Shown here piece by piece: positions 1 through 44,873 of a stretch of DNA of 64,000 nt (the stretch's first letter is position 1; every line of letters begins with the position of its first letter). Below the pieces are notes generated by a model, which did no database searches, was not told the origin of the DNA, and saw only the letters and a list, made by a program, of their open reading frames with translations. A program made the position numbers and the translations under genes. Source of the stretch: Azadirachta indica (taxonomy: Eukaryota; Streptophyta; Magnoliopsida; Sapindales; Meliaceae); NCBI GenBank assembly GCA_022749755.1, contig CM040441.1, positions 22,941,475 to 23,005,474 on the forward strand, given 5' to 3'.

Positions 1-1117
1 CATTTTGAGACAGGTCATACATCTTGTTATTCACTATAATGCGAGGATCATGGCAGTACATTTTATTTTTAAAACAGAGAAGTTAAAAATATACAATTTT
101 CTATGTTAGAATTGTCAAATGCCAAAACGACTCAAACAACATCTTTATTTCGAGACAGTTTACTCATTTTATTACTCATTATTGTGTGAGGATTATTGCT
201 GTGAATTTTAACTTTTCGAAAATAGAAAAGTTAAATTGTACAATTTTCGGAGCCAAAATTGTCAAACACGAAATAGACTGAAAAAATAATTTGATTTCGA
301 GACGGGCCACACATCTTGTTACTCACCATTGCGTGAGAATCATTTCGGTGCATTTTATTTCGAAAACGGAAAAGTTGAAAATGTACAATTTTCGGTGCCC
401 GAATTGTCAAAAGAAAACGAACTAGAGAAACGATTTCTTTTCGAGATGTGTCACACGTCTTATTACTCACTATAGCGATGATCATTATGGTACATTTTAT
501 TTCAAAAATGCAGAAGTTGAAAATGTACAATTTTCGGGATTGGAATTGTGAAATGCGAAATGGACTCGAACAACGTCTTTATTTCGATACAGGCCAGTCG
601 TCTTGTTATTTACTATCATGTGAGGATCATTGCGGTACATTTTATTTTGAAACCAAAAAATTTAAAAATGTATGATTTTGGGTGCCAGTTGTCCAATGTG
701 AAACAAACTCGAGAAATGACTTCATTTTGAGACGTGTCACATGTCTTGTTGCTCACCATTGCGTGAGAATCATTGAAGTACATTTTATTTCGAAAATGCA
801 AAAGCAGAAAATATTTGATTATCTGTGTCGAAATTATAAAACGCGAAACAGATCTGAAAAACATTTTCGTTTCAAGATAGGCAGACATCTTGTTACTCAT
901 CATTACGTTAGTATCATTTTAGTGTATTCTATTTCAAAAATGAAAAAATTGAAAATGTACGATTTTCGGGACTGGAATTATCAAACGTGAAACAAATTCA
1001 AAAAATGTCTTTGTTTCGAGACAGGCCACACTTCTTATTATTCACCATCACATGAGGATCACTTTCGTGCATTTTATTTCAAAAATGAAAAAGTTGAAAA
1101 CATACAATTTTCGATGC
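1..1117 (+). repeat. ~145-bp satellite array (left arm)
   Basis: About 7-8 diverged head-to-tail monomers of the same satellite as at 33222-36472. Each monomer carries a block like TTTCGAGACRGGYCACAC, then CTTGTTACTCACCAT, GTGAGGATCAT, GCATTTTATTT, AAAATGTACRATTTTCGG and AATTGTCAAA in that order. Short open frames here are by-products of the repeat and occur on both strands, so no gene is called. The array starts before the window and stops where the LTR beginning TGAAATTTAG is inserted. Confidence 0.9.
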
Positions 1118-2417
1118 TGAAATTTAGTCCTTCGTATAAAAAGAATTTCTTGAACCGCAAGATCATATTCCTAGTCAAATAAGTCATAATATAATCTCTT
1201 TTTCTGTTTTTTTTTTTAAATTGACTGGTTGACTAATTCAAAACTAGCTATATATTCCTTTCCATTAGGATTTCTTTTTCTTAAACAATAGTAATCCTTC
1301 TCGAATAGGAATTCTTGTGGCTAAATTAATTTAATTTCGTACTCCATATTTTATTTATTCTATTCGAATTCAATTGTGCACTTGTATCTTTTTAGCTTTG
1401 CTCTTCAATTCATTGCATTCTAGTGATTTCTTTTATATGTTTTTTTTTTTCTTCCTTTTGAAGTTTTCTTATTTTCTTGGCTCTTCTAATTTTCTTTCTC
1501 ATTGCCGTTTGCCTCAACTAAATCTTTAATGTTCTGATTTTGAAATTGGCCACCATTTAATCGATTGCTCCTAAAATTTGTTGATTTTGATTCTTTAAGA
1601 ATATAAAGGGGGCTGGCTTGAGTGGTAAAAGGAGAGAGTGGTGATAATACCGAAAAATAGAGGTTTGTGGGAAAATTAACATTTGCTAAGGAAAATAGGT
1701 TACTAAGCTCTATGATTAATATTAACAACAAAGGGATACGAAAACATCACCCTAAAATTATTATTAAAAGTTGTAGAGCTTCAAAGAAAACACTCACCAC
1801 TCTATGAAAAATTCTCCAAGAGATACAGAGTATAAAATATAAGAATTTTATTAAACTCAGCTCCAAAACCATTTGATTTCAATACTACATACTTGAAACT
1901 TTTATATAGGCTTTTACAAGGAAAGAAATGTTAAAAGTTAAGCTAACAACTATTAAAAATTTTAATGGTAAGGCCAACAACCATTACCTAACTTTGACAA
2001 ATAAAAAGAAATATTTAAAATTCTTTGAAAATAAGTCAAAATAGATAAGATTTTGAATTATAACTCATCGAATCCTTCTATCATCTAGAAATTAAACAAA
2101 ACACATTGAATTTAAGCTAAAAAATCTTTAAAATCCATGCATCCAAATTCTGCCTTAAAAATGAACATATTGTGAAGAAATTGTCATAACTTTCTCTAGA
2201 GAACTTCAAATGCTAAACCGCAAAATTTTATAGAAAGTTTACTTCTTTAACTTTCCAATGATACCAATCTCTTTCTAAAATATTACTTCAGTGAATATAG
2301 TTTAAATTTCAAAGTTACCCCTCTGACAGTATCTTCACAAGTTAGTAAATTAGGATAATCGTCTTAAACTTATTGACACTTAAGTTCTGTTCTTGATATT
2401 TGGACACTCCTATGTTA
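1118..2417 (-). mobile_element. LTR_E: 3' LTR of a reverse-strand Ty3/gypsy element (G2), copy 1
   Basis: About 1.3 kb. On the minus strand it starts with TAACATAGGAGTGTCC (TGACACGGGAGTGTCC in the related copy at 36473) and ends with TTTCA, giving near-canonical TG..CA ends. It lies directly downstream of the G2 integrase, behind a purine-rich tract (AATCAGGGGAGAT on the minus strand, about 2418-2432) that would be the polypurine tract. The left edge cuts into a satellite monomer. GATGC at 1113-1117 may be the target duplication, but the partner end is lost. Other pieces of this LTR lie at 9885-11183, 24612-24925 and 36473-36911. Confidence 0.7.
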
Positions 2418-2432
2418 ATCTCCCCTGATTAG

Positions 2433-3754
2433 AAAAGACTCATCCTTTACCATAACTTTCTGACAACTCAATCTTGTAAGCATTTTCTCTAATTCGTTGC
2501 AATACCTTAAATGGTCTATCAACTTTAGGCTTGAGTTTAGCATATTTTCCAAGTGGAAAACTTGCTCTTTGAAGATGTATCCAAACTAATTCTCCTTCCC
2601 TGAACTCGACATGCTTGCGATGTTTGTTTGCAGAAAGTCGATACTTATCATTTTGCTTCAAATTTCTGTCACGAACTTGCTCATAAAGCTTTTTGATACT
2701 CTTAGCTTTTTCTTCAGCATCTCCACTAAAGTATTGATGAATTAGAAGTGAAGCTAAATCCATTAGACTGATAGGATTTTTTCCATAAACTACCTTAAAA
2801 GGACTTTGACCAATATATTGGCTAGTTGATCGATTATACGCAAATTCAATTTGAGGCAAAATAACATCCTATTGTCGGATATTCTTACCAACATAACTTC
2901 GTATAGAGAGTACCCAAACTCTGATTTGTCACTTCTATTTGACTGTCAATGTGAGGATGATGAGAAGAGCTAAAATTGATACTAGTGCTAAGTTTTCTCC
3001 ATAGTGTTCACCAAAAGTGACTCAAAAACTTGGAATCTCGATAAAAAACGATTGTTTTTAGAATACCATGCATCTTCACTACCTCTTTAAAATATAAATT
3101 AGCCATATTAGAGGCATCTATTGTTTTGTTGCATAGAATAAAATAAGCCATTTTAGAAAACCTATCACTACCACCATGACAAAATCTTTATTTCTTTGAG
3201 TTCTTGGTCACCCAACAATAAAATCTAGACTAACATCTTCCTATGGAGCATTAGGCATGGTAATGGAGTATATAAACCCGTATTTTATCCATGACTTTTT
3301 GCAACATGGCTAATCTTACACCTTTCCATATGCTTCATTACATCACATCCTAGTTTTGGCCAAAAAAACTTATCTTTCAAGAGAACAAGTGTTTTATCTC
3401 TACCAAAGTGACCTCTAACACAACTATTATGAGCTTCCATGATAATAGACTCTCTTAAAGAACACTGAGGAATGCACAAACAATTACCTGTAAAGAGATA
3501 GCCCTCTTGTCACAAGAATTGCTTGTAAGGATGATTTTCACATTCTGCCCATATCTTGCCAAAGTTTGGATCACTTGCATATAATTCCTTCACAACTTTA
3601 AGGCCTATGACTTTCACTTGCATTGAGGATAGCAAGGAATGTTTTCGGTTAAGTGCATCAACTACAACATTTTGAACTCCAGATTTGTGTTTAATGGTGA
3701 AGTTGAAAGATTGAAGAAATTCAACCTATCCAACATGTCTTCGATTTAGCTTTT
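2433..3754 (-). pseudogene. G2 gypsy pol 3' half: RNase H tail and integrase, copy 1 (broken)
   Basis: Read on the minus strand. The RNase H C-terminus (about 3754-3640, VDAL-like end) is followed by the integrase HHCC zinc finger (open frame 3285-3479, with H..CVRGHFGRDKT and FFWPKL), a decayed catalytic core, and the integrase C-terminal region (2440-2859). The C-terminal region has the conserved IEFAYNRS, PFKVVYG, WIHLQ and PFKVLQRI blocks. Stops and frameshifts separate the pieces, so no integrase is made. Strand transfer during retrotransposon integration is the family role. The frame ends at the polypurine tract of LTR_E. The clade was not resolved; it is a chromovirus-type gypsy by its motifs. 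Confidence 0.8.
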
Positions 3755-3816
3755 TAATGCAAATGAAGTTGCGCAACCACGCAAAAAAAGGAGAAACTCA
3801 CACATAAAGCTGGAGA
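3755..3816 (+). mobile_element. 62-bp filler from the start of LTR_C inside G2 pol, copy 1
   Basis: The segment TAATGCAAATGAAGTTGCGC and the bases after it align with the first ~60 bp of the CRM-like LTR that starts at 58851. It sits exactly between the RNase H tail and the RT block (reverse MPFGL motif) of G2, where several hundred bp of pol are missing. It looks like filler at a deletion junction, or the last trace of an inserted element. Confidence 0.6.
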
Positions 3817-4195
3817 CCAAAGGGCATCACCATCCATTCATAAAGCCTATCTCGAGTTTTAAAAGCAGTTTTTCATTCATCTCCAAGCCGCATTCTGATT
3901 TGATGATAACCACTCCAAAGATCATTCTTTGAAAAGATTTTAGCCCTATGAAATTGGTCTAAAAGATCATCTAAGTGTGGAATTGGAAAGGGATAATCAA
4001 TTGTTATCTTGTTTACCACTTACTATTAACGTACATATGCCACGATCCATCTTTCTTTGGTACTAAAAGTGCGAAAAAACAACACAAAGACGCTTACTTT
4101 CTCAAACCAATCCCTTTACAATCAGCTCATCAACTTGTCTTTATAACTCTTCATACTTTTTTGAACTCATTCAGTAACCTGCCTTGTTTGGTAGA
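3817..4195 (-). pseudogene. G2 gypsy reverse transcriptase N-terminal fragment, copy 1
   Basis: Minus-strand translation gives the RT fingers and palm start: [16 protein letters not shown], [24 protein letters not shown] and LYEWMVMPFGL. The catalytic YxDD motif lies in the missing part. Stop codons interrupt the upstream linker (about 4000-4190). The fragment is cut on one side by the 62-bp LTR_C filler and on the other by the Athila LTR that begins at 4196, so G2 was the target of the Athila insertion. Confidence 0.75.
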
Positions 4196-5110
4196 TGATG
4201 AATGTTTAAAAGTGTAGGTTTATGAAGAGAAATATTATGATTTACACTTAATAATGTCCTTCTATTCTCTAATAATGAAGCATATTCCTTTATATTGAAT
4301 TGTAAAACATGAATTGGACTAAATAGTCGGTTTTGCGCAGGTTTCGTATAATGAGTGTATCTTTTAATCAAATCATCAATTGATACGATTCTTGAGCTGG
4401 ACAAACATAAACTCATCATTTCACAACTTTGTAAGCCAAAGGTTGGACCATTTCGAGCAATTAATGGGACAAAATTGGGCTTCAATAGAACTCAAGCGCA
4501 TCTTTGAACCAGCCCAACATGCTTCTGTATTTGGGCCATATCAAAAAATTATATGGTTGCATGATCTAGAAAGCTGAGAAAGGGATCTAAATTTTTTATG
4601 TTTTGTACTTTCTCAAATTTCAATTGGTCGACTACCAAAAAGAGCGATCATTCTAGAAGGGCGGTGGGAGAAATGCGACTTGAACATCTCTGCCTATTTT
4701 CAATACAACTCATGGTTTAAAACAGCAGTAAGGGTGAGATATGGACCATTAGAAAGATGAGTCATCTATCTACAACTTTGAAGAAGGCTATTTTACAAAA
4801 TTCGATGATTTTTTATGGTCAAAAATATGTTGGAAGTTGGTAGAGCGTGATTAATTGGAAATTGACAAAATTATTTTTCACACATATGAATGTGTTTTTG
4901 TTTTACCTATATAAAGGAAGATGTGGAAGTGAGGAGTAGGAGAATTGTTTTTACCATTTCTGTTTTTTTTTTGTAATTTGAACTTCAATTAAATGATATA
5001 TTTCTAATTTTGTAATTAGGGGTAAGGGTGAACTTTTGATGATTTTATAGTTTTGTTCTTTGATCCTTTGTTCTTTGTTCTTCATTGAGTTAAACTTTTA
5101 AGTTGTAACA
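4196..5110 (+). mobile_element. Athila-type 5' LTR with internal deletion, copy 1
   Basis: Starts TGATGAATGTTTAAAAG and ends AAGTTGTAACA (TG..CA). It is 915 bp long, against 1394 bp for the second copy (12967-14360) and 1393 bp for the solo LTR (40119-41511). The 3' part lacks about 480 bp, joined near 5093. A TATA box (TATATAAAGG, about 4910) and the downstream R/U5-like region are retained. It is followed by a tRNA-Asp-type primer-binding site, so it is the 5' LTR. The flanking pentamer GTAGA (4191-4195) would be the target duplication, but the 3' end of the element is absent. Confidence 0.85.
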
Positions 5111-9332: not shown

Positions 9333-9884
9333 AACAACGTCTTTATTTCGATACAGGCCAGTCGTCTTGTTATTTACTATCATGTGAGGATCATTGCGGT
9401 ACATTTTATTTTGAAACCAAAAAATTTAAAAATGTATGATTTTGGGTGCCAGTTGTCCAATGTGAAACAAACTCGAGAAATGACTTCATTTTGAGACGTG
9501 TCACATGTCTTGTTGCTCACCATTGCGTGAGAATCATTGAAGTACATTTTATTTCAAAAATGCAAAAGCAGAAAATATTTGATTATCTGTGTCGAAATTA
9601 TAAAACGCGAAACAGATCTGAAAAACATTTTCGTTTCAAGATAGGCAGACATCTTGTTACTCATCATTACGTTAGTATCATTTTAGTGTATTCTATTTCA
9701 AAAATGAAAAAATTGAAAATGTACGATTTTCGGGACTGGAATTATCAAACGTGAAACAAATTCAAAAAATGTCTTTGTTTCGAGACAGGCCACACTTCTT
9801 ATTATTCACCATCACATGAGGATCACTTTCGTGCATGCATTTATTTCAAAAATGAAAAAGTTGAAAACATACAATTTTCGATGC
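9333..9884 (+). repeat. ~145-bp satellite array, second copy of 572-1117
   Basis: About four monomers, nearly identical to 572-1117. One small difference is GTGCATGCATTTATTTC at about 9832. It ends at the same LTR_E junction as the first copy. Confidence 0.9.
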
Positions 9885-11183
9885 TGAAATTTAGTCCTTC
9901 GTATAAAAAAATTTCTTGAACCGCAAGATCATATTCCTAGTCAAATAAGTCATAATATAATCTCTTTTTCTGTTTTTTTTTTTTAAATTGACTGGTTGAC
10001 TAATTCAAAACTAGCTATATATTCCTTTCCATTAGGATTTCTTTTTCTTAAACAATAGTAATCCTTCTCGAATAGGAATTCTTGTGGCTAAATTAATTTA
10101 ATTTCGTACTCCATATTTTATTTATTCTATTCGAATTCAATTGTGCACTTGTATCTTTTTAGCTTTGCTCTTCAATTCATTGCATTCTAGTGATTTCTTT
10201 TATATGTTTTTTTTCTTCCTTTTGAAGTTTTCTTATTTTCTTGGCTCTTCTAATTTTCTTTCTCATTGCCGTTTGCCTCAACTAAATCTTTAATGTTCTG
10301 ATTTTGAAATTGGCCACCATTTAATCGATTGCTCCTAAAATTTGTTTTTGATTTTGATTCTTTAAGAATATAAAGGGGGCTGGCTTGAGTGGTAAAAGGA
10401 GAGAGTGGTGATAATACCGAAAAATAGAGGTTTGTGGGAAAATTAACATTTGCTAAGGAAAATAGGTTACTAAGCTCTATGATTAATATTAACAACAAAG
10501 GGATACGAAAACATCACCCTAAAATTATTATTAAAAGTTGTAGAGCTTCAAAGAAAACACTCACCACTCTATGAAAAATTCTCCAAGAGATACAGAGTAT
10601 AAAATATAAGAATTTTATTAAACTCAGCTCCAAAACCATTTGATTTCAATACTACATACTTGAAACTTTTATATAGGCTTTTACAAGGAAAGAAATGTTA
10701 AAAGTTAAGCTAACAACTATTAAAAATTTTAATGGTAAGGCCAACAACCATTACCTAACTTTGACAAATAAAAAGAAATATTTAAATTCTTTGAAAATAA
10801 GTCAAAATAGATAAGATTTTGAATTATAACTCATCGAATCCTTCTATCATCTAGAAATTAAACAAAACACATTGAATTTAAGCTAAAAAATCTTTAAAAT
10901 CCATGCATCCAAATTCTGCCTTAAAAATGAACATATTGTGAAGAAATTGTCATAACTTTCTCTAGAGAACTTCAAATGCTAAACCGCAAAATTTTATAGA
11001 AAGTTTACTTCTTTAACTTTCCAATGATACCAATCTCTTTCTAAAATATTACTTCAGTGAATATAGTTTAAATTTCAAAGTTACCCCTCTGACAGTATCT
11101 TCACAAGTTAGTAAATTAGGATAATCGTCTTAAACTTATTGACACTTAAGTTCTGTTCTTGATATTTGGACACTCCTATGTTA
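9885..11183 (-). mobile_element. LTR_E: 3' LTR of G2, copy 2
   Basis: Collinear with 1118-2417, with a few single-base changes and small indels in poly-T runs. Same minus-strand start (TAACATAGGAGTGTCC) and end. Confidence 0.7.
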
Positions 11184-12524
11184 ATCTCCCCTGATTAGAA
11201 AAGACTCATCCTTTTTACCCATAACTTTCTGACAACTCAATCTTGTAAGCATTTTCTCTAATTCGTTGCAATACCTTAAATGGTCTATCAACTTTAGGCT
11301 TGAGTTTAGCATATTTTCCAAGTGGAAAACTTGCTCTTTGAAGATGTATCCAAACTAATTCTCCTTCCCTGAACTCGACATGCTTGCGATGTTTGTTTGC
11401 AGAAAGTCGATACTTATCATTTTGCTTCAAATTTCTGTCACGAACTTGCTCATAAAGCTTTTTGATACTCTTAGCTTTTTCTTCAGCATCTCCACTAAAG
11501 TATTGATGAATTAGAAGTGAAGCTAAATCCATTAGACTGATAGGATTTTTTCCATAAACTACCTTAAAAGGACTTTGACCAATATATTGGCTAGTTGATC
11601 GATTATACGCAAATTCAATTTGAGGCAAAATAACATCCTATTGTCGGATATTCTTACCAACATAACTTCGTATAGAGAGTACCCAAACTCTGATTTGTCA
11701 TTTCTATTTGACTGTCAATGTGAGGATGATGAGAAGAGCTAAAATTGATACTAGTGCTAAGTTTTCTCCATAGTGTTCACCAAAAGTGACTCAAAAACTT
11801 GGAATCTCGATAAAAAACGATGGTTTTTAGAATACCATGCATCTTCACTACCTCTTTAAAATATAAATTAGCCATATTAGAGGCATCTATTGTTTTATTG
11901 CATAGAATAAAATAAGCCATTTTAGAAAACCTATCACTACCACCATGACAAAATCTTTATTTGTTTGAGTTCTTGGTCACCCAACAATAAAATCTAGACT
12001 AACATCTTCCTATGGAGCATTAGGCATGGTAATGGAGTATATAAACCCGTATTTTATCCATGACTTTTTGCAACATGGCTAATCTTACACCTTTCCATAT
12101 GCTTCATTACATCACATCCTAGTTTTGGCCAAAAAAACTTATCTTTCAAGAGAACAAGTGTTTTTATCTCTACCAAAGTGACCTCTAACACAACTATTAT
12201 GAGCTTCCATGATAATAGACTCTCTTAAAGAACACTGAGGAATGCACAAACAATTACCTGTAAAGAGATAGCCCTCTTGTCACAAGAATTGCTTGTAAAG
12301 ATGATTTTCACATTCTGCCCATATCTTGCCAAAGTTTGGATCACTTGCATATAATTCCTTCACAACTTTAAGGCCTATGACTTTCACTTGCATTGAGGAT
12401 AGCAAGGAATGTTTTCGGTTAAGTGCATCAACTACAACATTTTGAACTCCAGATTTGTGTTTAATGGTGAAGTTGAAAGATTGAAGAAATTCAACCTATC
12501 CAACATGTCTTCGATTTAGCTTTT
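11184..12524 (-). pseudogene. G2 gypsy RNase H tail and integrase, copy 2 (broken)
   Basis: Same content as 2433-3754: integrase C-terminal block open at 11215-11628, decayed catalytic core, HHCC region. An extra T near 12162 shifts the zinc-finger frame that is still open in copy 1, so this copy is slightly more decayed there. Confidence 0.8.
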
Positions 12525-12587
12525 TAATGCAAATGAAGTTGCCCAACCACGCAAACAAAAGGAGAAACTCACACATAAAGCTGGAGA
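12525..12587 (+). mobile_element. LTR_C filler inside G2 pol, copy 2
   Basis: TAATGCAAATGAAGTTGCCC and the following bases occupy the same place as 3755-3816, so the event predates the duplication. Confidence 0.6.
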
Positions 12588-12966
12588 CCAAAGGGCATCA
12601 CCATCCATTCATAAAGCCTATCTCGAGTTTTAAAAGCAGTTTTTCATTCATCTCCAAGCCGCATTCTGATTTGATGATAACCACTCCAAAGATCATTCTT
12701 TGAAAAGATTTTAGCCCTATGAAATTGGTTTAAAAGATCATCTAAGTGTGGAATTGGAAAGGGATAATCAATTGTTATCTTGTTTACCACTTACTATTAA
12801 CGTACATATGCCACGATCCATCTTTCTTTGGTACTAAAAGTGCGAAAACAACACACAAAGACGCTTACTTTCTCAAACCAATCCCTTTACAATCAGCTCA
12901 TCAACTTGTCTTTGTAACTCTTCATACTTTTTTGAACTCATTCAGTAACCTGCCTTGTTTGGTAGA
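12588..12966 (-). pseudogene. G2 reverse transcriptase N-terminal fragment, copy 2
   Basis: Same RT fingers/palm fragment as 3817-4195, with the [17 protein letters not shown] and LYEWMVMPFGL blocks on the minus strand, ended by the Athila LTR. The pentamer GTAGA at 12962-12966 is next to the LTR. Confidence 0.75.
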
Positions 12967-14360
12967 TGATGAATGTTTAAAAGTGTAAGTTTATGAAGAG
13001 AAATATTATGATTTACACTTAATAATGTCCTTCTATTCTCTAATAATGAAGCATATTCCTTTATATTGAATTGTAAAACATGAATTGGACTAAATAGTCG
13101 GTTTTGCGCAGGTTTCGTATAATGAGTGTATCTTTTAATCAAATCATCAATTGATACGATTCTTGAGCTGGACAAACATAAACTCATCATTTCACAACTT
13201 TGTAAGCCAAAGGTTGGACCATTTCGAGCAATTAATGGGACAAAATTGGGCTTCAATAGAACTCAAGCGCATCTTTGAACCAGCCCAACATGCTTCTTTA
13301 TTTGGGCCATATCAAAAAATTATATGGTTGCATGATCTAGAAAGCTGAGAAAGGGATCTAAATTTTTTATGTTTTGTACTTTCTCAAATTTCAATTGGTC
13401 GACTACCAAAAAGAGCGATCATTCTAGAAGGGCGGTGGAGAAATGCGACTTGAACATCTCTGCCTATTTTCAATACAACTCATGGTTTAAAATAGCAGTA
13501 AGGGTGAGATATGGACCATTGGAAAGATGAGTCATCTATCTACAACTTTGAAGAAGGCTATTTTACAAAATTCGATGGTTTTTATGGTCAAAAATATGTT
13601 GGAAGTTGGTAGAGCGTAATTAATTGGAAATTGACAAAATTATTTTCACACATATGAAATGTTTTTTGTTTTACCTATATAAAGGAAGATGTGGAAGTGA
13701 GGAGTAGGAGAATTGTTTTACCATTTCTGTTTTCTTTTTGTAATTTGAACTTCAATTAAATGATATATTTCTAATTTTGTAATTAGGGGTAAGGGTGAAC
13801 TTTTGATGATTTTATAGTTTTGTTCTTTGATCCTTTGTTCTGTTCTTCATTGTCAATCTTTTTATTGATTGAGTACTATATTTTGCAAGTGATTTTGAAT
13901 TGTTAGAAACCTTGATTCATTGTTAACAAATGGTACATTGAATGCTTGGATGTTTTCTATATATCAAGAGTAAGGCAACTTATAGTTTTTCACCATCAAC
14001 TAAAAGGTAAGTCTTTTGATTTCTTTGTGCTTAAATATTTTTTTCATCATCCAATTAAGATCACTTCTTTTGATTCTTAATTTTTTTTTTAAAAAGAAAA
14101 AAAGGATCAAGAATAAATTCTATACAAATCATTAAAATGGATCTCTATTGCCCTAATATATAATAATATTAAATTTAAATTTGACAATAAGCAAATTCAT
14201 TCCATTTCTTATAATATTTGAATATTTGGACTTGTAATATTTAAACGTTGGGACTTGTGGACTTAATATAACGTATTCCCTATGGACCGACACTCAGACT
14301 TCCAAACTTTATTACTTGAGACAACCTATACTTGAGAGTTACAACTTTTAAGTTGTAACA
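12967..14360 (+). mobile_element. Athila-type 5' LTR, full length, copy 2
   Basis: 1394 bp from TGATGAATG to AGTTGTAACA, matching the length of the solo LTR at 40119-41511. A TATA box (TATATAAAGG) lies at 13676-13685. A tRNA-Asp primer-binding site follows 6 bp after the LTR. It is inserted in the G2 RT fragment. Confidence 0.9.
13676..13685 (+). promoter_or_regulatory. TATA box in Athila LTR
   Basis: TATATAAAGG preceded by ACC, conserved in the solo LTR at 40844-40853 and in copy 1. It is the only strong TATA element in the LTR and the likely start region for retrotransposon RNA. This is inference from position. Confidence 0.6.
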
Positions 14361-14366
14361 AGTTTT

Positions 14367-14384
14367 TGGCACCGTTGCCGGAGA
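14367..14384 (+). promoter_or_regulatory. Primer-binding site (tRNA-Asp type), Athila copy 2
   Basis: TGGCACCGTTGCCGGAGA. The stretch TGG and CACCGTTGCCGG pairs with the tRNA-Asp 3' end apart from one or two changes. This supports the Athila assignment and fixes the 5' LTR end at 14360. Confidence 0.9.
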
Positions 14385-14871: not shown

Positions 14872-15836
14872 ATGGCTAAAAATGAAAGTATACATGGAGA
14901 AAATGAAAATCATCATGTTCGAACTATGTGTGAATATTTGCAATCTCCTCGAAATTCATCTCTTTCATGCTTTATTTTTCTGCTTAATGCAAATAACTTC
15001 ATATTTAAGCCTGGTATGATCCCTTTACTTCCTAAATTCCATGGCTTAGAGTCTGAGAGTTCTTATTTGCACTTGAAAGAATTTGAGGAAGTATGTGCCA
15101 CATTATGGATCAAACATGTAGTGAAGAAATAATTAAGCTAAAATTGTTTCCTTTTCCTTTAAAAGATAAAGCAAAAACAGGACTTAATTCATTAAGACCT
15201 AGATCTATAGGCACATGACAAGAAATACAAACCAAGTTTTCAAAGCAATTTTTTTCAATATATAAAACGAATGCTTTCAAGAGACAAATCCAAAATTTTT
15301 GTCAAAGAGGAAATGAGACCTATTTTCAATGTTTGGAAAGATTTAAAGACTTTTTGAATTCATGCCCACACCATGATTTTGAAAAATGGCGTACGATCAG
15401 TTTCTTTTATGAAGGGTTAACGCTAGAGACAAAACAATTTGTTAAAACAATGTGTAATGGTGAATTTTTAGATAAAGACCCAGAAGAAGGTCTAGAGTAT
15501 TTAGACCATTTAGCTGAGAACTCTCAATCCTGGCAAACCACTAGTTTCTCTGAAAATCCAATTAAATCTAATATAGCTAGTTCTAGTGTGGGTAAATATA
15601 ATTTAAGTCAAGAAGATGATTTAAGTGCCAGAATTACAAATTTAACGAGAAAGATTGAAGCCATGGAATTAAGGAAAGTTAAAGAAGTCAAATTTGTGCA
15701 TAATGATGAAGTTTGTGAAATTTGTAAAGTCATGGGACATTCCGCTCAAGATTGTCCAAATATTCCAATTTTTAAAGAAGCGTTGCATGATCAAACAAAT
15801 TCTATGAATTCTTTCAAAAAACTTTTTTTTCTCTAA
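14872..15836 (+). pseudogene. Athila gag, copy 2 (frameshifted)
   Basis: Starts at ATG 14872 (MAKNESIHGEN). The N-terminal part with FHGLESESSYLHLKEF is open to 15132. A broken segment follows, then 15333-15836 is open with NSCPHHDFEKW, FYEGLTLETKQFV, MCNGEFLDKDPEE and the CCHC knuckle CEICKVMGHSAQDC. Nucleocapsid and particle-forming role by family. Unlike copy 1 it continues into protease and pol. The frame break after 15132 is in the same place as in copy 1, so the lesion was inherited by both. Confidence 0.85.
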
Positions 15837-17490: not shown

Positions 17491-17946
17491 ATGCAACGTA
17501 GGATAAATCCTAATATGAAAGAGGTAGTGAGAAATGAAGTTCTCAAGTTTTTAGATGTAGGGATTATTTATCCTATTTCTGATAGCACACGGGTAAATCT
17601 TACACAAGTTGTACCTAAAAAATCTGGAGTTACTGTAGTCAAAAATGAAAATAATGAATTAATTCCAACTAGAATAATTACTGGCTGGAGCATGTGCATT
17701 GACTATAGGAAACTCAATTCAATGATTAGGAAAGACCATTTCCCGTTACTATTAATGGATCAAATGTTAGAAAAGGTAGCTGGACATGCATTTTATTGTT
17801 TTCTAGATGGGTATTCTGGGTATAACCAAATTGAAATTGCACCTGAATACCAAGAAAAGACCACTTTCACTTGTTCATTTGGAACTTTTGCATATAAAAG
17901 GATGCCATTTGGATTGTGTAATGCACCAGCTACATTTCAAAGATGC
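17491..17946 (+). pseudogene. Athila reverse transcriptase, N-terminal half
   Basis: Open frame with MKEVVRNEVLKFLDVGIIY, VVPKKSG, CIDYRKLNSMIRKDHFP, FLDGYSGYNQIEIAP, TTFTCSFGTFAYKRMPFGL and CNAPATFQRC. These are the RT finger and palm motifs in order. It is cut after CNAPATFQRC by a 318-bp inverted piece of the element's own LTR. The second half, with the catalytic aspartates, resumes at 18265 in the same frame. Confidence 0.9.
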
Positions 17947-18264
17947 GCTTGAGTTCTGTTGAAACCCAATTTCGTCCCATTAATTGCTCGAATTGGTCCA
18001 ACTTTTGGCTTACAAAGTTGTGAAATAATGAGTTTATGTTTGTCCAACTCAAGAATCGTATCAATTGATGATTTGGATTAAAAGATACGCTCATTATACG
18101 AAACTTGCGCAAAACCGACTATTTAGTTCAATTCATGTTTTACAATTCAATATAAAGGAATATGCTTCATTATTGGGTAACAAAAGGACATTATTAAGTG
18201 TAAATCATAATATTTCTCTTGATAAACCTACACTTTTAAACATTCATCACACCCCCCAACCAGC
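17947..18264 (-). mobile_element. Inverted Athila LTR-start fragment inserted in its own RT
   Basis: The reverse complement matches the first ~303 bp of the Athila LTR (4196 onward, 12967 onward, 40119 onward), preceded on that strand by GGTTGGGGGGTG, a polypurine tract like that at 22287. The left junction lies in an 11-bp identity (TTCAAAGATGC) shared by the RT and the LTR. It introduces a stop immediately (GCGCTTGA). Confidence 0.85.
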
Positions 18265-19207: not shown

Positions 19208-20448
19208 AATGCTCAAGATAAAAAGAAATTTTTAAGGGAGGTACGCAATTTCTTTTAAGATGATCCATATCTTTTCAAATATTGCCCTGATCACATTATA
19301 AAGAGATGTGTACCTAACAATGAAATTCAAAATGTCATTTCTTTTTGTCATTCTGAAGCATGTGGTGGTCATTTTTCTTCAAAGAAAACTGCTGCGAAAA
19401 TCTTGCAATATGGATTTTATTGGCCCACCTTATTTAAAGACACACATACATTTTGTAAAACATGTGACCGTTATCAAAAATTAGGTAAAATAACTCGTAA
19501 AAACATAATGCTATTAAATCCTATTTTAGTCATAGAAATATTTGATTGTTGAGGTATTGATTTTATGGGTCCTTTTCCATCTTCTTTTAGGTATCAATAC
19601 ATTTTAGTTGGATTGACTATGTTTCAAAATGGGTAGAGACAATTTCTTGCAAAAATAATGATCATAAAATTGTTTTGAAATTTTTGAAAGAAAACATTTT
19701 TTCAAGATTTGGAGTGTCTCGAGCCATAATAAGTGATGGAGGTTTACACTTTTGTAATAATCCTTTTGAGAATTTAATGGAAAAATACGGAATTAAAAAT
19801 AAAGTGTCTACCCCTTATCACCCACAAACAAGTGGACAAGTTGAACTTGCCAATAGAGAAATAAAATACATTTTAGAAAAAATGGTAAACCCGAATCGTA
19901 AGGATTGGTCTTTAAGACTAACCGATGTACTTTAAGCTTATCGAACTGCTTTTAAATCATCACTTGGCATGTCTCCTTATAGACTTGTTTTTGGAAAGGT
20001 TTGTCACCTACTTGTGGAATTGGAACATAAAGCTTTTTGGGCCATTAAAATGCTTAATTTTGATTTAGATAAAACAGGATCATTGAGAAAACTCCAAATA
20101 GATGAACTCGAAGAAATTAGGAATGAAGCTTATGAGAATTCTAAAATTTACAAAGAGAAAATGAAGGTGTTTCATGATAAACGTATCATTAGAAAATCAT
20201 TTGAACCTTCACAAAAAGTTCTTTTGTATGATTCAAGATTGCATCTGTTTCCTGGCAAACTTCGTTCAATATGGATAGGTCATTTCATTGTTAAGAAGGT
20301 TTACGCACATGGCGCTACTGAGATTGAGAACCCTAAAAATGGTAATGTTTTTAAAGTTAATGGATACCGTTTAAAGCCATTCTTTGAGAATTTTCCAAAC
20401 GAGTTAGAGTCCATCACTTTGATTGAACCTGTTTACAACACTGGATGA
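19208..20448 (+). pseudogene. Athila integrase
   Basis: HHCC zinc-binding region (CHSEACGGHFSSKKT, then FCKTCDRYQ), then the DDE core: GIDFMGPFP, IISDGGLHFCN and TSGQVELANREI, so all three acidic residues are present. The C-terminal part is open at 19969-20448 ([38 protein letters not shown]). Frameshifts and stops occur at about 19551, 19620-19670 and 19933. The frame ends in EPVYNTG, close to the usual Athila pol end. The expected 3' untranslated region begins only after an extra ~1.7 kb that carries two non-retroviral frames. Confidence 0.9.
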
Positions 20449-20647
20449 TTTTTTTTTATTGTATATACATTACTTGTTTTCTTGTGTTATTAATTTTATT
20501 GATTCCATTATTTGTTTTTAATTACTTTCCCGGTCAAGTGGCGGATAATGGTACTCCGTCACTCTTCAAATCGATTCTTTCAGTTGCCCAAAATTACTGA
20601 TACTAAATTTTCTCTCACTTGTTTTTCTGTTCTTTTCTTTTTTCATT
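20449..20647 (+). other. Athila post-pol spacer
   Basis: T-rich spacer. The TTTCCCGGTCAAGTGGCGGA / TACTCCGTCACTC stretch (about 20527-20575) looks like the conserved non-coding segment that follows pol in this retroelement lineage. The second copy begins here (61354 equals about 20474). Confidence 0.55.
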
Positions 20648-21190
20648 ATGAATGTCATTCTTTATAGATTGCAAACATATTTTCCTTCTTTTCCTAAAGA
20701 TGTTTTACGAAAATTGTACCAAGTTAGGTGTGCAAGATTAAGAATGCTTATGTAAAAAGGTATTCCTGAAGATATGCGGTGGATAATTGAAGTAAAGGTA
20801 CGTTTAGCAGGTGAGTTTTATGATTCATTTGTTTCACACATGTCTGGTTTAGGTAAGAGCTCTTTTGCAAAGAAACGAAGAGCGAAAAGGTTACAAGTGT
20901 GTCACAAATGTGCACATTCAACCTGTAACAAGCGATGTCGTTCTCTAGGGATGGTGTTTACTAATAGAGAAGATAAAATTAAATTCATCAAGGATGGACT
21001 GAGTAAGGAGTCTTTAGGTAATATCTTATTGACTCTTGAGACGCATCCTAGTGGATATGCGCAACGTGAAATTCTTAATTTGTATACATTATTTCAAAAA
21101 GAACGTGATCATCTTGGGAATCTGACTTTAAAAGACCTTATTTGCCAATTTGTAAAAAAATTGGATAGGAAGCCAATTCTTGACCCATAG
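20648..21190 (+). pseudogene. Flexivirus-type nucleic-acid-binding protein-like frame, copy 1
   Basis: From ATG 20648 the frame runs about 180 codons with one internal TAA at 20753-20755. The open part from 20774 is 138 residues. Residues 27-39 of that part are GKSSFAKKRRAKR, an Arg/Lys-rich motif, followed at once by a compact Cys cluster C43-x2-C46-x4-C51-x3-C55 and then FTNREDKIKFIKDGL. A basic patch next to a zinc-finger-like Cys cluster is the signature of the small 3'-proximal nucleic-acid-binding proteins of plant Betaflexiviridae (carla- and vitivirus type). No retrotransposon protein I know has it. The C-terminal ~70 residues are not recognised. It lies between Athila pol and a LOG-like gene on the same strand. 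An unrelated plant zinc-finger fragment remains possible. Confidence 0.5.
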
Positions 21191-21487
21191 AAGGCGTTTA
21201 AGCTATTACTGGATGTAAAATCAGAGGAAGATGTGAGCCACAATCACAACTATCTGTAAATATTTACTTTTAGTTGCCATTGTTGAAATTTTTATGTTTT
21301 AGATTCCTATATTAGCCGTTATCTTTGACATTTTTACATTTTTAAATTTTAACTTTTATGACAACAGCTGGCTTACCTCTATTGGTTTCATTAATACATT
21401 CTCTTTAAGTTGTATAAATGCAGGACCTCATTTCTTTATTTTCATACAAAATTTGAATTACTGACGAAGGTAAAAGACTGCAAAAGA
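21191..21487 (+). other. Spacer between the flexivirus-like and LOG-like frames
   Basis: AT-rich, no convincing coding. A short upstream in-frame extension of the LOG-like frame (from 21410) exists, but ATG 21488 gives the normal LOG start context. TTGTATAAATGCAG at about 21410-21423 looks like an intron 3' end, but no matching donor is certain. Confidence 0.4.
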
Positions 21488-22132
21488 ATGGAAGGAGCTT
21501 CTATTCATCAATTTACAACTATTTGTGTTTTTTGTGGGTCAAGCTCCGGGAAAGGTGAAGAGTTTGTAAAAGCAGCAGACGATCTGGGTCGAGTTTTAGC
21601 TGAGCAAAAACTTAACCTACTATATAGAGGAGGTAGCCTTGGGTTAATGGGGTGTATGTCAATTGCCGAATATGTAGGAGGAAGTGGAGTCATAGATATC
21701 ATACCAAAGGCTTTATCTGTAGATAACATAACCGGCAAAACAGTTGGAGAAGAACTAATGGTCTTAACAATGCATGAAAGAATTGCATTTTAATTCTGCA
21801 GATGCTTTTATTGCCTTACCATGTGGTTTTGGGACCTTAGAGAAATTTTTCAAGTTGCATCTTGGGCACAACTCACCATTCACAAAAAACTCATAGGATT
21901 GTTAAATGTTAATGGTTTCTTTAACAAGTTATTGTCTTTTCTTGATCATGCTGTAGAACAGAATTTTATTTCACAGATGGCTCGTAAACTCCTCATTTCT
22001 ACTCCAACTATTAATAACTTGATCAATCAGTTGCAGAACTTTATCCATGAATCAGATCCAACGATGGCACGATTAGAATGGTCAAGTGAAAGCAGTAAAA
22101 AGCGAAAGCTGGATTTGTCGCTTCATTTGTAA
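21488..22132 (+). pseudogene. LOG-like: Intronless LONELY GUY-like cytokinin-activating enzyme, copy 1
   Basis: Family role: LOG hydrolyses cytokinin riboside 5'-monophosphate to free cytokinin plus ribose 5-phosphate, in the cytosol. ATG 21488 opens MEGASIHQFTTICVFCGSSS, the normal LOG N-terminus. Then come LGRVLAEQ, RGGSLGLMG (family GGGS-GLMG, first Gly changed to Arg), VIDIIPKAL, ITGKTVGE and MHER. A frameshift with a stop at 21791-21793 and a second one near 21845 split the protein. After them come ADAFIALPCGFGTLE (family PGG-GT--E, one Gly changed to Cys), WAQLTIHKKLIGLLNVNG and the C-terminal helices to 22132. The few residues around the catalytic Arg after MHER are missing. Plant LOG genes have several introns; none is seen here, so this is a processed copy. 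It sits inside an Athila element, downstream of pol. Confidence 0.85.
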
Positions 22133-23045
22133 CTTTTCTTATCTCTTTTTTCTACTCATTGCATTTTGTTATTTTTGCTTAAATTTGTTTCAGGTTTTAC
22201 TTGTGTTTCAATAACTACCATCTCAGGTAATGTTCTCTATACTGTACCTCTTTACATTCAAACATTGGGGACAATGTTACAATCTGGTTGGGGGGAGTGT
22301 AGTTGACATAAGTAACCCTTTTTTTTTAATACACAACTAAAAATATATATATATATTTTTAGATTCATAATTTGTAAGGATGGTAGAGCAAGGAGTAATC
22401 TTACTCCTAAGACATATCTTAGTAGATATGCATTATCATTTGTTTTGATTTTTGAATTTCATAACAAAGGATTTATCATTCACTTTCTTTTGAATTGATC
22501 AAATCTACAGACTCTCACATCATCATCATATAACAAAAATTCTGCTTAAATACTCAATCAGTAAAATATTTATAAACCATCTTTCACACACACACTTTGA
22601 TACATGATTGTGGATGATATATTAGAATTTTACAATATTTGAGCTTTTTTGTTTTGTCAAAGGTAGCAACTAAGGGTTAAAAAAAAAAAAACTCCAAAAA
22701 AAAAAAAAAGTAAAAATTCTAACCAAAGCTTTTACTTAGTAACCGGGCTTCTTACCTAATTAACAGCAAATGTTCGCGTAAAACAGTAAAGTTTTGGTAT
22801 GAATAAGTTCATAACTTTAATTCGAGTAATTAAGCCCGTAGAGATGTTTTAACACCAATACCCTAAGGCCAACTGGTCTGGGAGTTATTGGCCCAAAGCT
22901 CGCTACATGGGTTAGGTTATTCAAAAAAAAAAAAAAAAAGAGATAGAATTAATTTTTGCCCAAATAAGTTTACCTTGACAAAATTTAGAACCAATATTAT
23001 TTGATTCCAATTAAGTCCCATAATATATATTAGTTATAAAAAAGC
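22133..23045 (+). other. Athila 3' untranslated region
   Basis: Non-coding. Carries ACATTGGGGACAATGTTACA and GGTTGGGGGGAG (about 22265-22300), the post-pol G-rich box of Athila-type elements, an AT dinucleotide run (about 22343), poly-A stretches, and the CTAAGGCCAACTGGTCTGGG / GCTCGCTACATGGGTTAGG segment. No 3' LTR follows; at about 23046 it meets a reverse-strand gypsy. Confidence 0.65.
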
Positions 23046-24090
23046 ACAAAAAGAAGGTTTATTAATAATTTGACTGATGAGTATTTGGCAGTAGAACAGC
23101 TTCTGGTACAAGATCAATGCAATGTTGAATGTCTCTCATCGGAGGAAGTTCGGGCGGAATCTCCTCTGGAACAACATCATGAAACTCTTCAAGATGTTTC
23201 TTCATCTGTGATGGTTCATTGCCATCTTCATTTTCCTTTAATATAACTAGAACATAAACTTCATTACCTAAATTCAACTCCTTTTGACATTCTGATATGA
23301 CAAGCAAATTGTTTCCCTCCCCTTTTACAGGTTTAGGAATATTTTCCATCGACGAACTTAAAACTACCTTTGGTTCCATTTTTGACAAAAATATAAGTGT
23401 TTTTATACCCATCATGTATAACCTTTCTATCATATTGCTAAAGTCTTCCCAAAAGTAAATGACAAGCATCCATGGGCACAACATCACACGAAACTTCATC
23501 CATATATTTTTTTCCAATTGAAAACGAAATAAGACAGCATTTTTTTACCTTTATCTCACTGCCCTTTCGAAGCCAAGAAAGTTTGTATGGTTGAGGATGT
23601 TGCTCAGTTTTAAGACACAACTTCTTTACCATTTCAGTAGACACCACATTCTCAAAAGCTGCCTCCATCAATGATGACGTTACAAACCTTACCATTAGAA
23701 GTACATCTTGTGTGAAAAATATTCTTTTGCAACCAATCTTCTCCTTCAAATGCAACGCTTAAACTTCGCCGCATAACAAGGGACGTGCCATAATCAGCAT
23801 ATATAACATCATCTTTTTCTACATTTTTTGGAACTTTAGAATCCAATTGTGGACCCTCCCTCAATTTCTTCATCAGCATCTTCTTCAATAAGTGTGATAA
23901 TTTTGCGATTAGGATATTCGCAAGCAATATGCCCAACACCTTGACATTTGAAGCATCATTGAGAATTCGTGCTTGGTTGCTACTTAGAGCTAGTTCCCAC
24001 ATCATTTTTGGCAAGAATCTTGGTTCCTGATTTCACGTTAGAAGTATTTTTAGAAATGAAGGTGTTCCCATGATTGGAAGTGATGTCTTT
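23046..24090 (-). pseudogene. Gypsy family F gag zinc knuckle and protease, up to the RT start
   Basis: On the minus strand from 24090: gag tail, zinc knuckle (CFKCQGVGHIACEYPN, frame shifted), linker, HTRCTSNGKVCNVIIDGG (protease D-G-G site), SWLRKGSEIKV, CHLLLGRLW, then a linker with DVVPEEIPPELPPM and DIQHCIDLVP, the usual entry to RT. It stops there against the Athila 3' region. Three overlapping frames show several frameshifts. Family resemblance is to chromovirus Gag-Pol. RT and integrase are missing. Confidence 0.75.
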
Positions 24091-32756: not shown

Positions 32757-33221
32757 AAATTTATTTTCTTAAGTTCTAATCTGATAATCTACAACTTATT
32801 TTTTGGTTCTTAGGATGCACATAACAATTGATTTAAGAGTTCGTAGAGCAAGTCGTCTAATGGGTTCTTATCACTTACGGCAATTGAATTTATTAATTAT
32901 GCTATTATTTGGTGGAATCAATTGTTGAAGGATAGAAGAAGAAATCAAGAATGTCTTGTTGACACGTAGGACGAGATGAAGGTAATAATGAGAAGATGTT
33001 TCATTCCAAGCTACTATCATCCGAAGTTGTTCAACAAATTACAATGATTAACTCAAAAGGATCCAAAAGCGTAGATGAATACTACAAAGAGATGAAGGTT
33101 GCTATGATTCAAGCAAATGTAGAGGAGGATAGAGAAGCTACCATTGCTAGGTTCTTATGTGGTTTAAATCGTGAGGTTGCGGACGTAGGGGAGATGTAAT
33201 ATTATGTAGAGTTGACAAATA
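32757..33221 (+). pseudogene. LTR_B end joined to a CRM-like gag fragment
   Basis: The end of LTR_B (to about 32880) is followed without primer site or leader by gag coding DNA: INYAIIWWNQLLKDRRRNQE, DEMKVIMRRCF, SKGSKSVDEYYKEMKVAMIQ, EEDREATIARFLCGLNREV, then YYVELTN. It breaks off into satellite at about 33222. A large deletion has removed the intervening 5' part. Confidence 0.75.
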
Positions 33222-36200
33222 TGGACTCCAAAAATGTCTTCATTTCGAGAAAGGCCATACATCTCCTACAAACCATCACGTGAGGATTATTTTCTTGCAT
33301 TTTATTTCGAAAACAAAGAAATTGAACATGTACGATTTTCGAGACTAGAATTGTCAAATGCGAAACGGGACTTGAACAACGTCTTCGTTTTGAGACCTAC
33401 CATATGTCTTATTACTCACCATCGCATGAAGATCATTGCGATGCACTTTATTTTGAAAACAGAAAAGTTAAAATTGTACGATTTTTTGTGTTAGAATTGT
33501 CACATGCAAAACGGACTAGGAAAATGTTTTCGTTTCGAGACTGGCCACACGTCTTGGTACTCACCATTGTGTGAGGATCGTTTTGGTGCATTTTATCTCA
33601 AAAAAGAGAAAGTTGAAAATGTATGATTTTCGTGGCCTAAATTGTCAAATACAAAACGGACTTGAAAAACGTCTTTGTTTCGAGATGGCCATACGTCATG
33701 TTACTTACCATCACATAAGGATCATTTCAGTGTATTTTATTTAAAAAATGAAAATGTTGAAAATGTACAATTTTCAGGGCCAAAATTGTCAAATGTGAAA
33801 CGGACTCAAAAAATATCTTCGTTTCGAGACAGGTCACACATCTTGTTACTCACCATAGCGTGAGAATCACTTCGATGCATTTTATTTCGAATAAGAAAAA
33901 GTTAAAAACATAAAATTTTCGGTGCCGACAATGTCAAATGCGAAATGGCCTAGAGAAATGACTTCGTTTCAAAACGGCTCACAGGTCTTGTTACTAACTA
34001 TAGGGCAAGGATCATTGGAATACATTTTATTTCAAAAATAAATAAGTTAAAAATGTGCGATTTTCAAGGCTGAAATTGTCAAATGCGAAACAGACTTGAA
34101 CAACGTCTTCATTTAAGGATGGGTCACTTGTCTTGTTAGTCACTATCATGTGAGAATCATTGCAGTGCATTTTATTTTGAAAACGGAAAGTTAAAAATGT
34201 ACGATTTTCGATGCCGAAATTGTCAAACAGGTAAGGGACTCGAGAAACGACTTGTTTTTAGAACGGCAATAAGTCTTATTACTCACTATCATGTGAAGGT
34301 TGTTGCGTTACATTTGATCTCAAAAATGCAGAAGTTGAAAATGTACGATTATCAGAGTCAAAATTGTCAAAAACGAAATAGATCCGAAAAATGTCTTTGT
34401 TTCGAGAAGGGCACATGTCTTGCTACTCACCGTCACGTGAGGATCACTTTGGTGCATTTTATTTAGAAAACGAAAAAATTAAAACGTACAATTTTCGGCA
34501 CTGGAATTGTCAAACGCAAAACTGGTTGAGAAATGACTTTTTTTCGAGATAGGGCATATGTCTTGTTACTCACGATTGCATGAGGATCATTGCAGTGTAC
34601 TTTATTTCGAAAATAGAGAAATTAAAATGTATGATTTTCGATGTCGAAATTGTCAAATGCAAAACGGATTCGAAAAATGACTTCGTTTTGAGACAGACCA
34701 CACACATCTTGGCAACAAATTGTCAAATACGAAATACACTCCAGAAACGTCTTCATTTCAAGACAGGTCATACATCTTCCTACTGACCATCACGTGAGGA
34801 TCATTTTTGTGCATTTTATTTCGAAAATAGAGAAGTTAAAAATGTACGATTTTTGGAGCTAGAATTGTCAAATGTGAAACTGCCTTGAAAAACGTCTTCA
34901 TTTCAAGACCTGTCACACGTCTTGTTACTCACCATTACGTGAAGATCATTGCGGCGCAATTTATTTCAAAAATCGAAAAGTTAAAATTGTACGATTTTTT
35001 GTGCCAGAATTGTCACACGCGAAACGAACTCAGAAAACATCTTCGTTTTGAGATAAGCCAAACGTCTTGCTATTGATCATCATGTGAGGATCATTTTGGT
35101 GCATTTTATTTTGAAAACTAGAAAGTTAAAAATGTACGATTTTCGTAGCCGGAATTGTCAAATGCTAAACGAACTCGAAAAACGTATTTATTTCGAGACT
35201 GGCCACACGTCTCGTTACTCACCATAATGCGAGAGTTAGTTTGGTGCATTTTATTTTGAAAATGGAGAAGTTGAAAATGAACGATTTTCGGGGCCGCAAT
35301 TGTCAAATATGAAATGGACCCAAAAACCGTATTTGTTTAGAGATAGGCCAAAAGTCTTGTTACTCACCATTACGTGGGGATCCTTCCAGTGTATTTCATT
35401 TCGAAAATGAATAAATAGAAAATTTATCATTTTTGGTGCCAAAATTCTCAAACGCGAAACGGACTCGAGAAACGATTTCTTTTTGAGACAGACCATATGT
35501 CTTATTACTTACCATTGTGTGAGGATCATTGCAATACATTCTATTTTGAAAACAGAAAAGTTAAAAATGTTCGATTTTTTATACTAGAATCGTTAAGTGC
35601 AAAACGGACTCAAGAAATGATTTCGTTTCAAAACAGAACGCATGGCTAGCTACTTACCATCACGTGAGTATCATTGTGGTGCATTTCATTTCGAAAACGA
35701 AAAAGTTGAAAATGTATAATTTTTGGCACCAGAATTCTCAAATGTAAAATGGACTTGAGAAATGACTTCGTTTTGTGACGGACCATACGTCTTGTTACTA
35801 ACCACCGCATGAGGTTCATTATATTACATTTTATTTCAAAAATAGAAAAGTTAAAAATGCACGATTTTCGAGACTAGAATTGTCAAATGCGAAACGGACT
35901 TGAAAAACGACTTTGTTTTGTGACGGACCACACGTCTTATTACCCATTACAGCGTGAGGATTATTGCTATGCATTTTATTTTAAAAATGGAAAAGTTGAA
36001 AATGTAAGATTTTCAGGGCCAGAATTTTCAAACACAAAATGTACTCGAAAAATGCCTTTGTCTGGAAACGGACCACATTTCTCATCACTCACCATCACGT
36101 GAGGATCATTTTAATGCATTTTATTTTGAAAACGGAAAATTTAAAAATATACTCTTTTCTGACCAGAATCGTCAAACATGAAACGGACTAAAGAAACAAC

Positions 36201-36472
36201 TTCATTTCGAGAAGGGTTACACATCTTTTTACTCACTATCACATGAGAATTATTATGGTGCATTCTATTTTGAGAACAGAGAAGTTAAAAATCTATGATT
36301 TTCGGGGCTGAAATCGTCAAATGCAAAACGGAGTCAAAAAACGTCTTCATTTCGAGATACGCAACACGTCTTATTACTCATTATTGCGTGAAGATTATTT
36401 CGGTACATTTTTATTTCAAAAAAAAAGTTAAAGATGTACAATTTTTGTGACCAGAATTGTCAAAGTAGAAAC
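33222..36472 (+). repeat. ~145-bp satellite array (main plus-oriented array)
   Basis: About 22 head-to-tail monomers. Spacing measured between successive GTCTTCGTTTCGAGA blocks near the left end is 145, 144, 146 and 145 bp. Many monomers contain the palindrome TCACGTGA (a CACGTG core) and the block AAATGTACGATTTTCGG. Divergence between neighbours is substantial, so the array is not freshly homogenised. Confidence 0.93.
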
Positions 36473-44547: not shown

Positions 44548-44873
44548 CACCGATTACATACTTTAGTGAGAAACTAAATGGCACGGCTTTAAACTATCTC
44601 ACTTACGACAAAGAATTATATGCATTGGTTCGAACTCTAGAAACTTGGCAGCATTACCCTTGGCCCAAAGAGTTTGTGATTCATACGGATCATGAATCCT
44701 TAAAACATTTAAAGGCGCAGCACAAATCAAGCAGACGTCATGCCAAACGGGTGGAGTTCATTGAAACATTTTCTTATGTGATCAAATACAAACAAGGCAA
44801 AGAAAATATAGTTGCTGATGCACTATCATGCAGGTAGCGATTTGAGGATAAATTCTTTTCAAGAGGGGGGGAA
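44548..44873 (+). pseudogene. CRM-like RNase H fragment fused to the polyprotein end
   Basis: [75 protein letters not shown], then directly GTAGCGATTTGAGG and a purine-rich tract (AAGAGGGGGGGAA). About 1.9 kb of integrase coding DNA expected between them is missing. The join falls in AGGTA, present on both sides. Confidence 0.85.

Follow-up and report, generated by a model that had tools for sequence, protein, structure and literature searches.

A CRP-type reading frame and a captured LOG gene in an Athila-type retrotransposon family of Azadirachta indica

The 64,000-nucleotide stretch of Azadirachta indica DNA analyzed here (the window) contains a degenerate copy belonging to a multicopy family of Athila-type Ty3/gypsy retrotransposons; between integrase and the 3′ LTR, the family carries a CRP-type open reading frame (ORF) of ~182 aa and a LOG ORF of ~216 aa. 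We regard this anatomy as close to certain. That the two genes form an accessory module that acts on the host and benefits the element is an interpretation to which we give slightly less than even chances, and each molecular step by which such a module might work is less probable still.

Anatomy of the window copy and of complete copies

The recognizable pieces of the window copy (gag, reverse transcriptase, integrase, CRP-type, and LOG) all lie on the + strand. The 5′ LTR at 12967-14360 (+), which begins TGATGAATG, shows 88.9% identity to a complete copy's LTR and is followed after 6 bp by a primer binding site at 14367-14384 (+) with 2 mismatches relative to TGGCGCCGTTGCCGGGGA; a search of the window for this site returned 2 matches against 0 expected. 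We take the TGGCGCCGTTGCCGGGGA type to be that of tRNA-Asp, and a primer site of this type lying 5-6 bp beyond the 5′ LTR, as found here, is a mark of the Athila lineage. Downstream lie a gag piece with a zinc knuckle (15219-15836, +; PF03732, 1.7e-8; PF00098, 0.0018, under its cut-off), a reverse transcriptase piece (17491-17952, +; PF00078, 9.9e-13), and integrase core and C-terminal pieces (19591-20448, +; PF00665, 3.2e-11 on 19591-19935) with a frame open up to 20448. Within pol there is also a reversed fragment comprising the LTR start and a G-rich tract (17936-18264, −), which matches the 3′ terminus of a complete copy at 94% identity.

Past the integrase, a carlavirus-type CRP/NABP-like zinc-finger coding region occupies 20648-21190 (+), its frame broken by a stop at 20753-20755 and its remainder (20756-21190) matching PF01623 and PF05515. 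The captured LOG coding region follows at 21488-22132 (+), and its frame is likewise broken in this copy: the open piece 21395-21793 matches At2g37210 (1.3e-22) and the open piece 21794-22132 matches PF03641 (1.5e-13), with the break falling between MHERIAF and the FIALPCGFGTLE segment. The C-terminal tail of LOG, KKRKLDLSLHL, is encoded at 22097-22129 (+) and combines a basic patch with LxLxL. A preliminary description of this DNA had placed an intronless LOG-like gene on the same strand downstream of the integrase end at 20448, and this was borne out on both counts, as no intron is present in 21488-22132.

Beyond LOG lies a G-rich, polypurine-like box (22263-22300, +), near-identical versions of which occur in four of the six complete copies examined. 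The preliminary description had taken 22287-22300 as the 3′ box of the element. In the six complete copies, the 3′ LTR begins 1079-1153 bp past the LOG stop, so the box is internal, and its identification as the tract adjoining the 3′ LTR was rejected. Similarity of the window copy to complete copies ends at 23090 (+), before the 3′ LTR, and comparison with those copies revealed no 3′ LTR after this point; given this end and the broken frames, the window copy is dead. At 61354-64000 (+), truncated where the window stops, lies a second copy of the CRP/LOG region, 99.3% identical to 20478-23132.

Between pol and the end of the window copy, Pfam gave CRP-type and LOG matches and no env-like match on the window pieces scanned, and the longest other open frame downstream of LOG in the six complete copies is 64-108 aa. 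The Athila/Calypso/Diaspora lineage (PMC1142308) shares with this family the Ty3/gypsy order, the same type of primer site 5-6 bp past the LTR, and a lengthy stretch separating pol from the 3′ LTR, but here that stretch is occupied by the CRP-type and LOG ORFs.

The genome (280.8 Mb, 21 contigs) was searched with a 101-aa LOG query, yielding 276 candidates, 150 of which were scored. All 150 scored places matched at E <= 0.001, so the genome holds at least 150. Duplicates are counted in this number: the query recurs with 100% identity at four places on C2, and the same 5′ flank is shared within two pairs of copies (L031/L033 and L035/L039). The surroundings were inspected for 30 of the 150 places and for six more. 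CRP-type motifs were present upstream of LOG in 30/30 loci, integrase residues ahead of these motifs in 28/30, and a related G-rich box downstream of LOG in 26/30. Ten copies were examined, each in two parts. In six of them LOG lies between two full LTRs of ~1.4 kb, with 93.3-97.8% identity within each pair, and the remaining four had partial LTR matches, one of these adjoining a withheld stretch and another being truncated by the limit of the piece analyzed. All six complete copies are flanked by 5-bp target duplications, four of them exact (ATCTG, GACAT, CTAAA, and TTGGC) and two with one mismatch each (tgact/taact and aggtc/agatc). Uninterrupted ORFs in other copies encode a CRP-type protein of 182 aa and a LOG of 216 aa. 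The LTR-bounded copies and the primer site support the earlier proposal that LOG lies within an Athila-type element, and the search suggested at the time, for LOG between two LTRs with target duplications, succeeded for these six of ten copies, although not for the window copy.

Origin and relatives of the element LOG

Judged by the positions of splice sites, the element LOG is derived from a spliced mRNA. An exon test across the 150 scored places used the final segment of an Arabidopsis LOG as its query. Ten of these resemble single exons, matching query residues 3/4 to 51-53 only, whereas most element copies match residues 2 to 66-68 in one frame. Four of the ten were read as host LOG exons, and each of the four is preceded by AG and followed by GT at the exon limits. 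Three element copies set beside the host exons read through the splice points, as do eight more well-scoring places, two of which are the retrocopy L051/L052. Because the host splice sites coincide exactly with points at which element copies continue without a break, the earlier proposal in the preliminary description that a spliced mRNA was captured is supported. The same evidence bears on the idea that LOG is an ordinary, decayed genomic gene adjoining an Athila element by chance, as the window copy, taken alone and lacking a 3′ LTR, might suggest. The absence of host LOG introns from element copies, together with the six other insertions in which LOG sits between full LTRs and target duplications, rules this out for practical purposes, and we consider it extremely improbable.

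Relatives of the element LOG were drawn from the best 120 of 7621 matches, among which the named sources are Xanthoceras, Melia, Diplodiscus, Reevesia, Pterospermum, Populus, and Parasponia; the closest named relative in this set is from Melia azedarach (P0004; Meliaceae). For the CRP-type ORF, the best 120 of 330 relatives include Xanthoceras, Populus, Rhamnella, and Acer as named sources. One Rhamnella gene model (P0227) contains both the CRP-type and LOG domains, and in another (P0211) integrase residues are joined to the CRP-type ORF. Equal-sized contigs were also considered as proof that CRP and LOG share a contig, and this was rejected, as two of them, at 905 bp, cannot contain both full ORFs.

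A LOG tree of 67 rows combined 38 relatives and 23 host LOGs, taken from length-filtered sets of 114 and 90, respectively, with two genome copies, one retrocopy, At5g11950, and two bacterial LOGs. The 40 element LOG rows fall on one side of a branch with support of 99/98; the host sample consists mainly of LOG1/LOG3-like sequences, and the root may be affected by long branches. For the relatives sampled, element LOGs of several rosid orders thus appear to form one clade. From this clade and the tail, rather than from genomic context, we infer that all 114 relatives are element-borne. Three Populus models named LOGL10 (P0056, P0061, and P0089) are, by these sequence features, element-type LOGs: P0056 and P0089 lie within the element clade, and LDLSLSL is the C-terminal sequence of P0056 and P0061. 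Their names are a warning to annotators.

Across several rosid orders, the relatives, at ~60-68% identity, still have reading frames without interruption, the catalytic motifs, and the tail, conservation that could stem in part from horizontal spread. Within the genome, median pairwise dN/dS was 0.78 for LOG (11 uninterrupted copies, 55 pairs), 0.81 for the CRP-type ORF (9 uninterrupted copies, 36 pairs), and 0.79 for the integrase end (8 uninterrupted copies, 28 pairs). As values near 0.8 are alike for all three, they do not demonstrate selection on LOG; conservation of motifs between species may be the stronger hint, one that horizontal spread could partly mimic. The LOG value, the broken state of most copies, and the fact that retroelements are known to capture host genes are all consistent with LOG being a passenger, captured once and kept via a shared, recently amplified ancestor without benefit to the element. 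The persistence of LOG across orders (a point that horizontal spread could weaken) and its pairing with the same upstream ORF argue against such a passenger, which we consider unlikely.

Active site and C-terminal tail of the element LOG

PF03641 was detected in 46/46 LOG relatives scanned and TIGR00730 scored over its cut-off in 3/3, and the predicted structure of the element LOG, of low confidence over the last 15 residues, adopts the LOG fold (2a33, E 5.1e-23). Against the NCBIfam LOG equivalog NF058542, element LOGs score 113-127 relative to a cut-off of 300, which the Arabidopsis-type LOG P0241 (132) also fails to reach. The fold, PGGxGTxxE, and the catalytic arginine are common to the element LOG and the plant enzymes At2g37210 and At5g11950, from which the former differs in being intronless, in the residue after the arginine, and in its basic-LxLxL tail. 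Comparison of 114 element-type relatives with 90 host LOGs showed 95-99% conservation of the P and G of PGGxG and of both E residues, and 94% conservation of the catalytic arginine. In contrast, 93% of the element LOGs have I, M, or L in place of the lysine next after the arginine, a position that is K in 100% of the host LOGs, and in MHxR the M is kept at 84% and the H at 55%. Given the lysine replacement and the weaker histidine, enzyme activity may be altered.

The retained fold, most of the motifs, and the PF03641 matches in every relative scanned would fit a purely enzymatic LOG that supplies active cytokinin locally in meristems, so that the element multiplies in cells leading to the germline, much as the preliminary description had speculated, with the tail serving as a localization signal only. 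This is difficult to reconcile with the replacement of a lysine invariant in hosts and with the weaker M and H, and it leaves the conserved LxLxL unexplained; we therefore think a purely enzymatic role improbable.

LxLxL lies no more than 3 residues from the end in 96/120 of the closest LOG relatives and in 0/120 host LOGs, 6 of which have LxLxL elsewhere in the protein; as the 120 relatives share ancestry, these counts are not independent. A basic patch usually precedes it (e.g., KKRKLDLSLHL), and the basic-plus-LDLxL pattern is found in 90/120 relatives. Mean pairwise identity is 0.72 for the LxLxL segment and 0.69 for the body of the protein, compared to 0.44 for the linker. The 24/120 relatives without an LxLxL end include an early branch (P0080, P0095, and P0111) in which the basic patch is present and the protein ends before LxLxL. 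Among 36 distinct genome copies, four of which are near-identical duplicates, the tail pattern is found in 31 and LxLxL is kept in 30, with L025 breaking LxLxL. This sequence resembles the EAR motif, through which TOPLESS is bound; among the matches listed in the open-licence literature, there was no report of an EAR/TOPLESS motif in retrotransposon proteins.

Loss of the invariant lysine alongside a conserved LxLxL end could also mean that the LOG domain is now a non-enzymatic nucleotide sensor or scaffold, its main task being recruitment of TOPLESS corepressors. PGGxG and the two E residues are nonetheless kept as in a working enzyme, and we judge a scaffold of this kind quite improbable.

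The CRP-type partner and a possible role for the pair

The window piece 20756-21190 scores 24.4 bits against PF01623 (cut-off 20.9) and 24.3 bits against PF05515 (cut-off 23.0), and at E <= 0.01 each profile matches 66/73 CRP-type relatives scanned (best 3.7e-8 and 1.1e-8, respectively). Like carlavirus CRP/NABP proteins, whose profiles it matches, the ORF encodes a basic patch (KKRRAK) followed by a four-cysteine finger, but it is longer (182 aa), is encoded by a retrotransposon, and has the spacing C-X2-C-X4-C-X3-C instead of C-X2-C-X9-C-X4-C. Because of this difference in spacing, we call the ORF CRP-type on the basis of its profile, not a carlavirus CRP. Its AlphaFold model is poor (pLDDT 66.5, pTM 0.37), a PDB profile search with the protein gave 0 matches at E <= 1, and in the viral contigs scanned for it, 79 pattern matches were obtained, 0 of which were confirmed by tblastn. 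The CRP of potato virus H, with a basic motif and the finger C-X2-C-X9-C-X4-C, suppressed local silencing (PMC3689765). For chrysanthemum virus B p12, weak suppressor activity has been described together with a role as transcription factor that causes hyperplasia (PMC12172455), and in an earlier test p12 did not suppress local silencing (PMC3689765).

If the CRP-type and LOG proteins do form a host-acting module, both would act on the host to the element's advantage. By analogy with carlaviral CRPs, the CRP-type protein might serve as a silencing suppressor and nuclear regulator, while the element LOG might enter the nucleus via its basic patch, recruit TOPLESS-type corepressors via LxLxL, and perhaps still bind or hydrolyze cytokinin nucleotides; the outcome would be aid to element expression or spread in dividing cells. 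The host-acting module is supported by the position of CRP before LOG in all 30 loci, the terminal LxLxL in element and not host LOGs, the higher identity of the tail segment than of the linker, and the functions of viral CRPs, and is weakened by dN/dS of ~0.8, the lysine and histidine changes, the 24 relatives without LxLxL, the cysteine spacing of the CRP-type ORF, and its poor model. In its most specific form, a virus-type silencing suppressor or transcription regulator would be joined to a cytokinin enzyme turned nuclear TOPLESS recruiter, and the pair would be kept as a host-manipulation module in several rosid orders. We regard this form as possible but doubtful, its chances being slightly lowered by the reduced conservation of the H and M of MHxR.

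Capture of LOG by a Gypsy element is not in itself new. The abstract of Steinbauerova et al. 2011 reportedly names Athila-like elements similar to LOGL4. In the only relevant paper on LOG in retrotransposons found in the open-licence literature, a YgdH/LOG domain is reported in Gypsy consensuses from two Citrus species and, unfiltered, from Populus trichocarpa as well, a finding stated there to agree with Steinbauerova et al. 2011 (PMC9289625). The novelty that the preliminary description had attached to LOG in a retroelement is thus lost; that description had missed the carlavirus-type coding region at 20648-21190 and the basic-LxLxL tail. The Citrus and Populus elements likewise have a LOG domain in a Gypsy-type element, and Citrus, as Melia, belongs to Sapindales, but the accessible text on them is without a carlavirus-type ORF, a basic-LxLxL tail, or an analysis of LTRs and target duplications (PMC9289625). 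The same source describes a Phalaenopsis Gypsy element with an AlkB/2-ODD domain, which similarly gained a host-type enzyme, but a different one, with in vitro activity reported (PMC9289625). Within the open-licence literature searched, what is apparently new is the CRP-type ORF ahead of LOG, the single rosid clade of element LOGs, and the basic-LxLxL tail; no paper on a carlavirus-type nucleic-acid-binding protein in a retrotransposon was found there.

The CRP-type ORF prompts one to ask in which direction the gene moved, from elements of this kind to carlaviruses or from carlaviruses to the elements. LTR retrotransposons are known to capture host genes, and a further question is what such genes do for the element. 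Should the nuclear TOPLESS-recruiter module be real, its two proteins would reduce silencing, drive the division of meristem cells, and spread the element. A lineage in which a CRP-type ORF accompanies a LOG with a motif like those of corepressor recruiters brings that question within reach of tests on two small proteins.

Surroundings of the insertions

Diverged tandem repeats of about 145 bp form arrays at 33204-36465, 42587-46703 and 48552-54276 of the window, and also make up parts of 1-1130 and 9333-9855. Repeats resembling these arrays were found on both flanks of another copy of the LOG-carrying Athila-type family (L047/L048), indicating that the family has inserted into satellite, which is perhaps centromeric. 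Within the window, 569-5099 and 9333-13862 share 98.9% identity, a 4.5-kb duplication that takes in part of the LTR of the Athila-type element. Elsewhere in the genome, the 5' flanks of the insertion were identical within each of two pairs of places lying far apart (L031/L033 and L035/L039), hinting at either large recent duplications or assembly duplicates.

G-rich tracts in the 3' part of the element

Two G-rich tracts, the first soon after LOG and the second adjoining the 3' LTR about 1 kb further on, have CTG(G/A)TTGGGG in common, as seen in the 3' parts of four copies (L033, L035, L037 and L045); the tract after LOG lies at 22263-22300 in the window. The pairing could represent a second polypurine tract or, alternatively, the remnant of an older 3' end.

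Other LOG-derived sequences

An intronless, host-type LOG retrocopy occupies two near-identical places (L051 and L052; G000:C7:771639-771911 and 5951338-5951610), has an open frame of 241 aa, and groups in the tree with host LOGs, not with element LOGs. Apart from the element LOGs, fragments derived from LOG make up another multicopy set, L053-L060, in which an intron is retained. Frames beside L059 and L060 contain a stretch that we take to resemble CACTA transposase, which suggests that LOG fragments are also present in a DNA transposon.

Among database proteins, three from Populus (P0056, P0061 and P0089), named LOGL10 by their source, were classed as element-type LOGs, and therefore transposon copies may inflate the counts of annotated LOG families.
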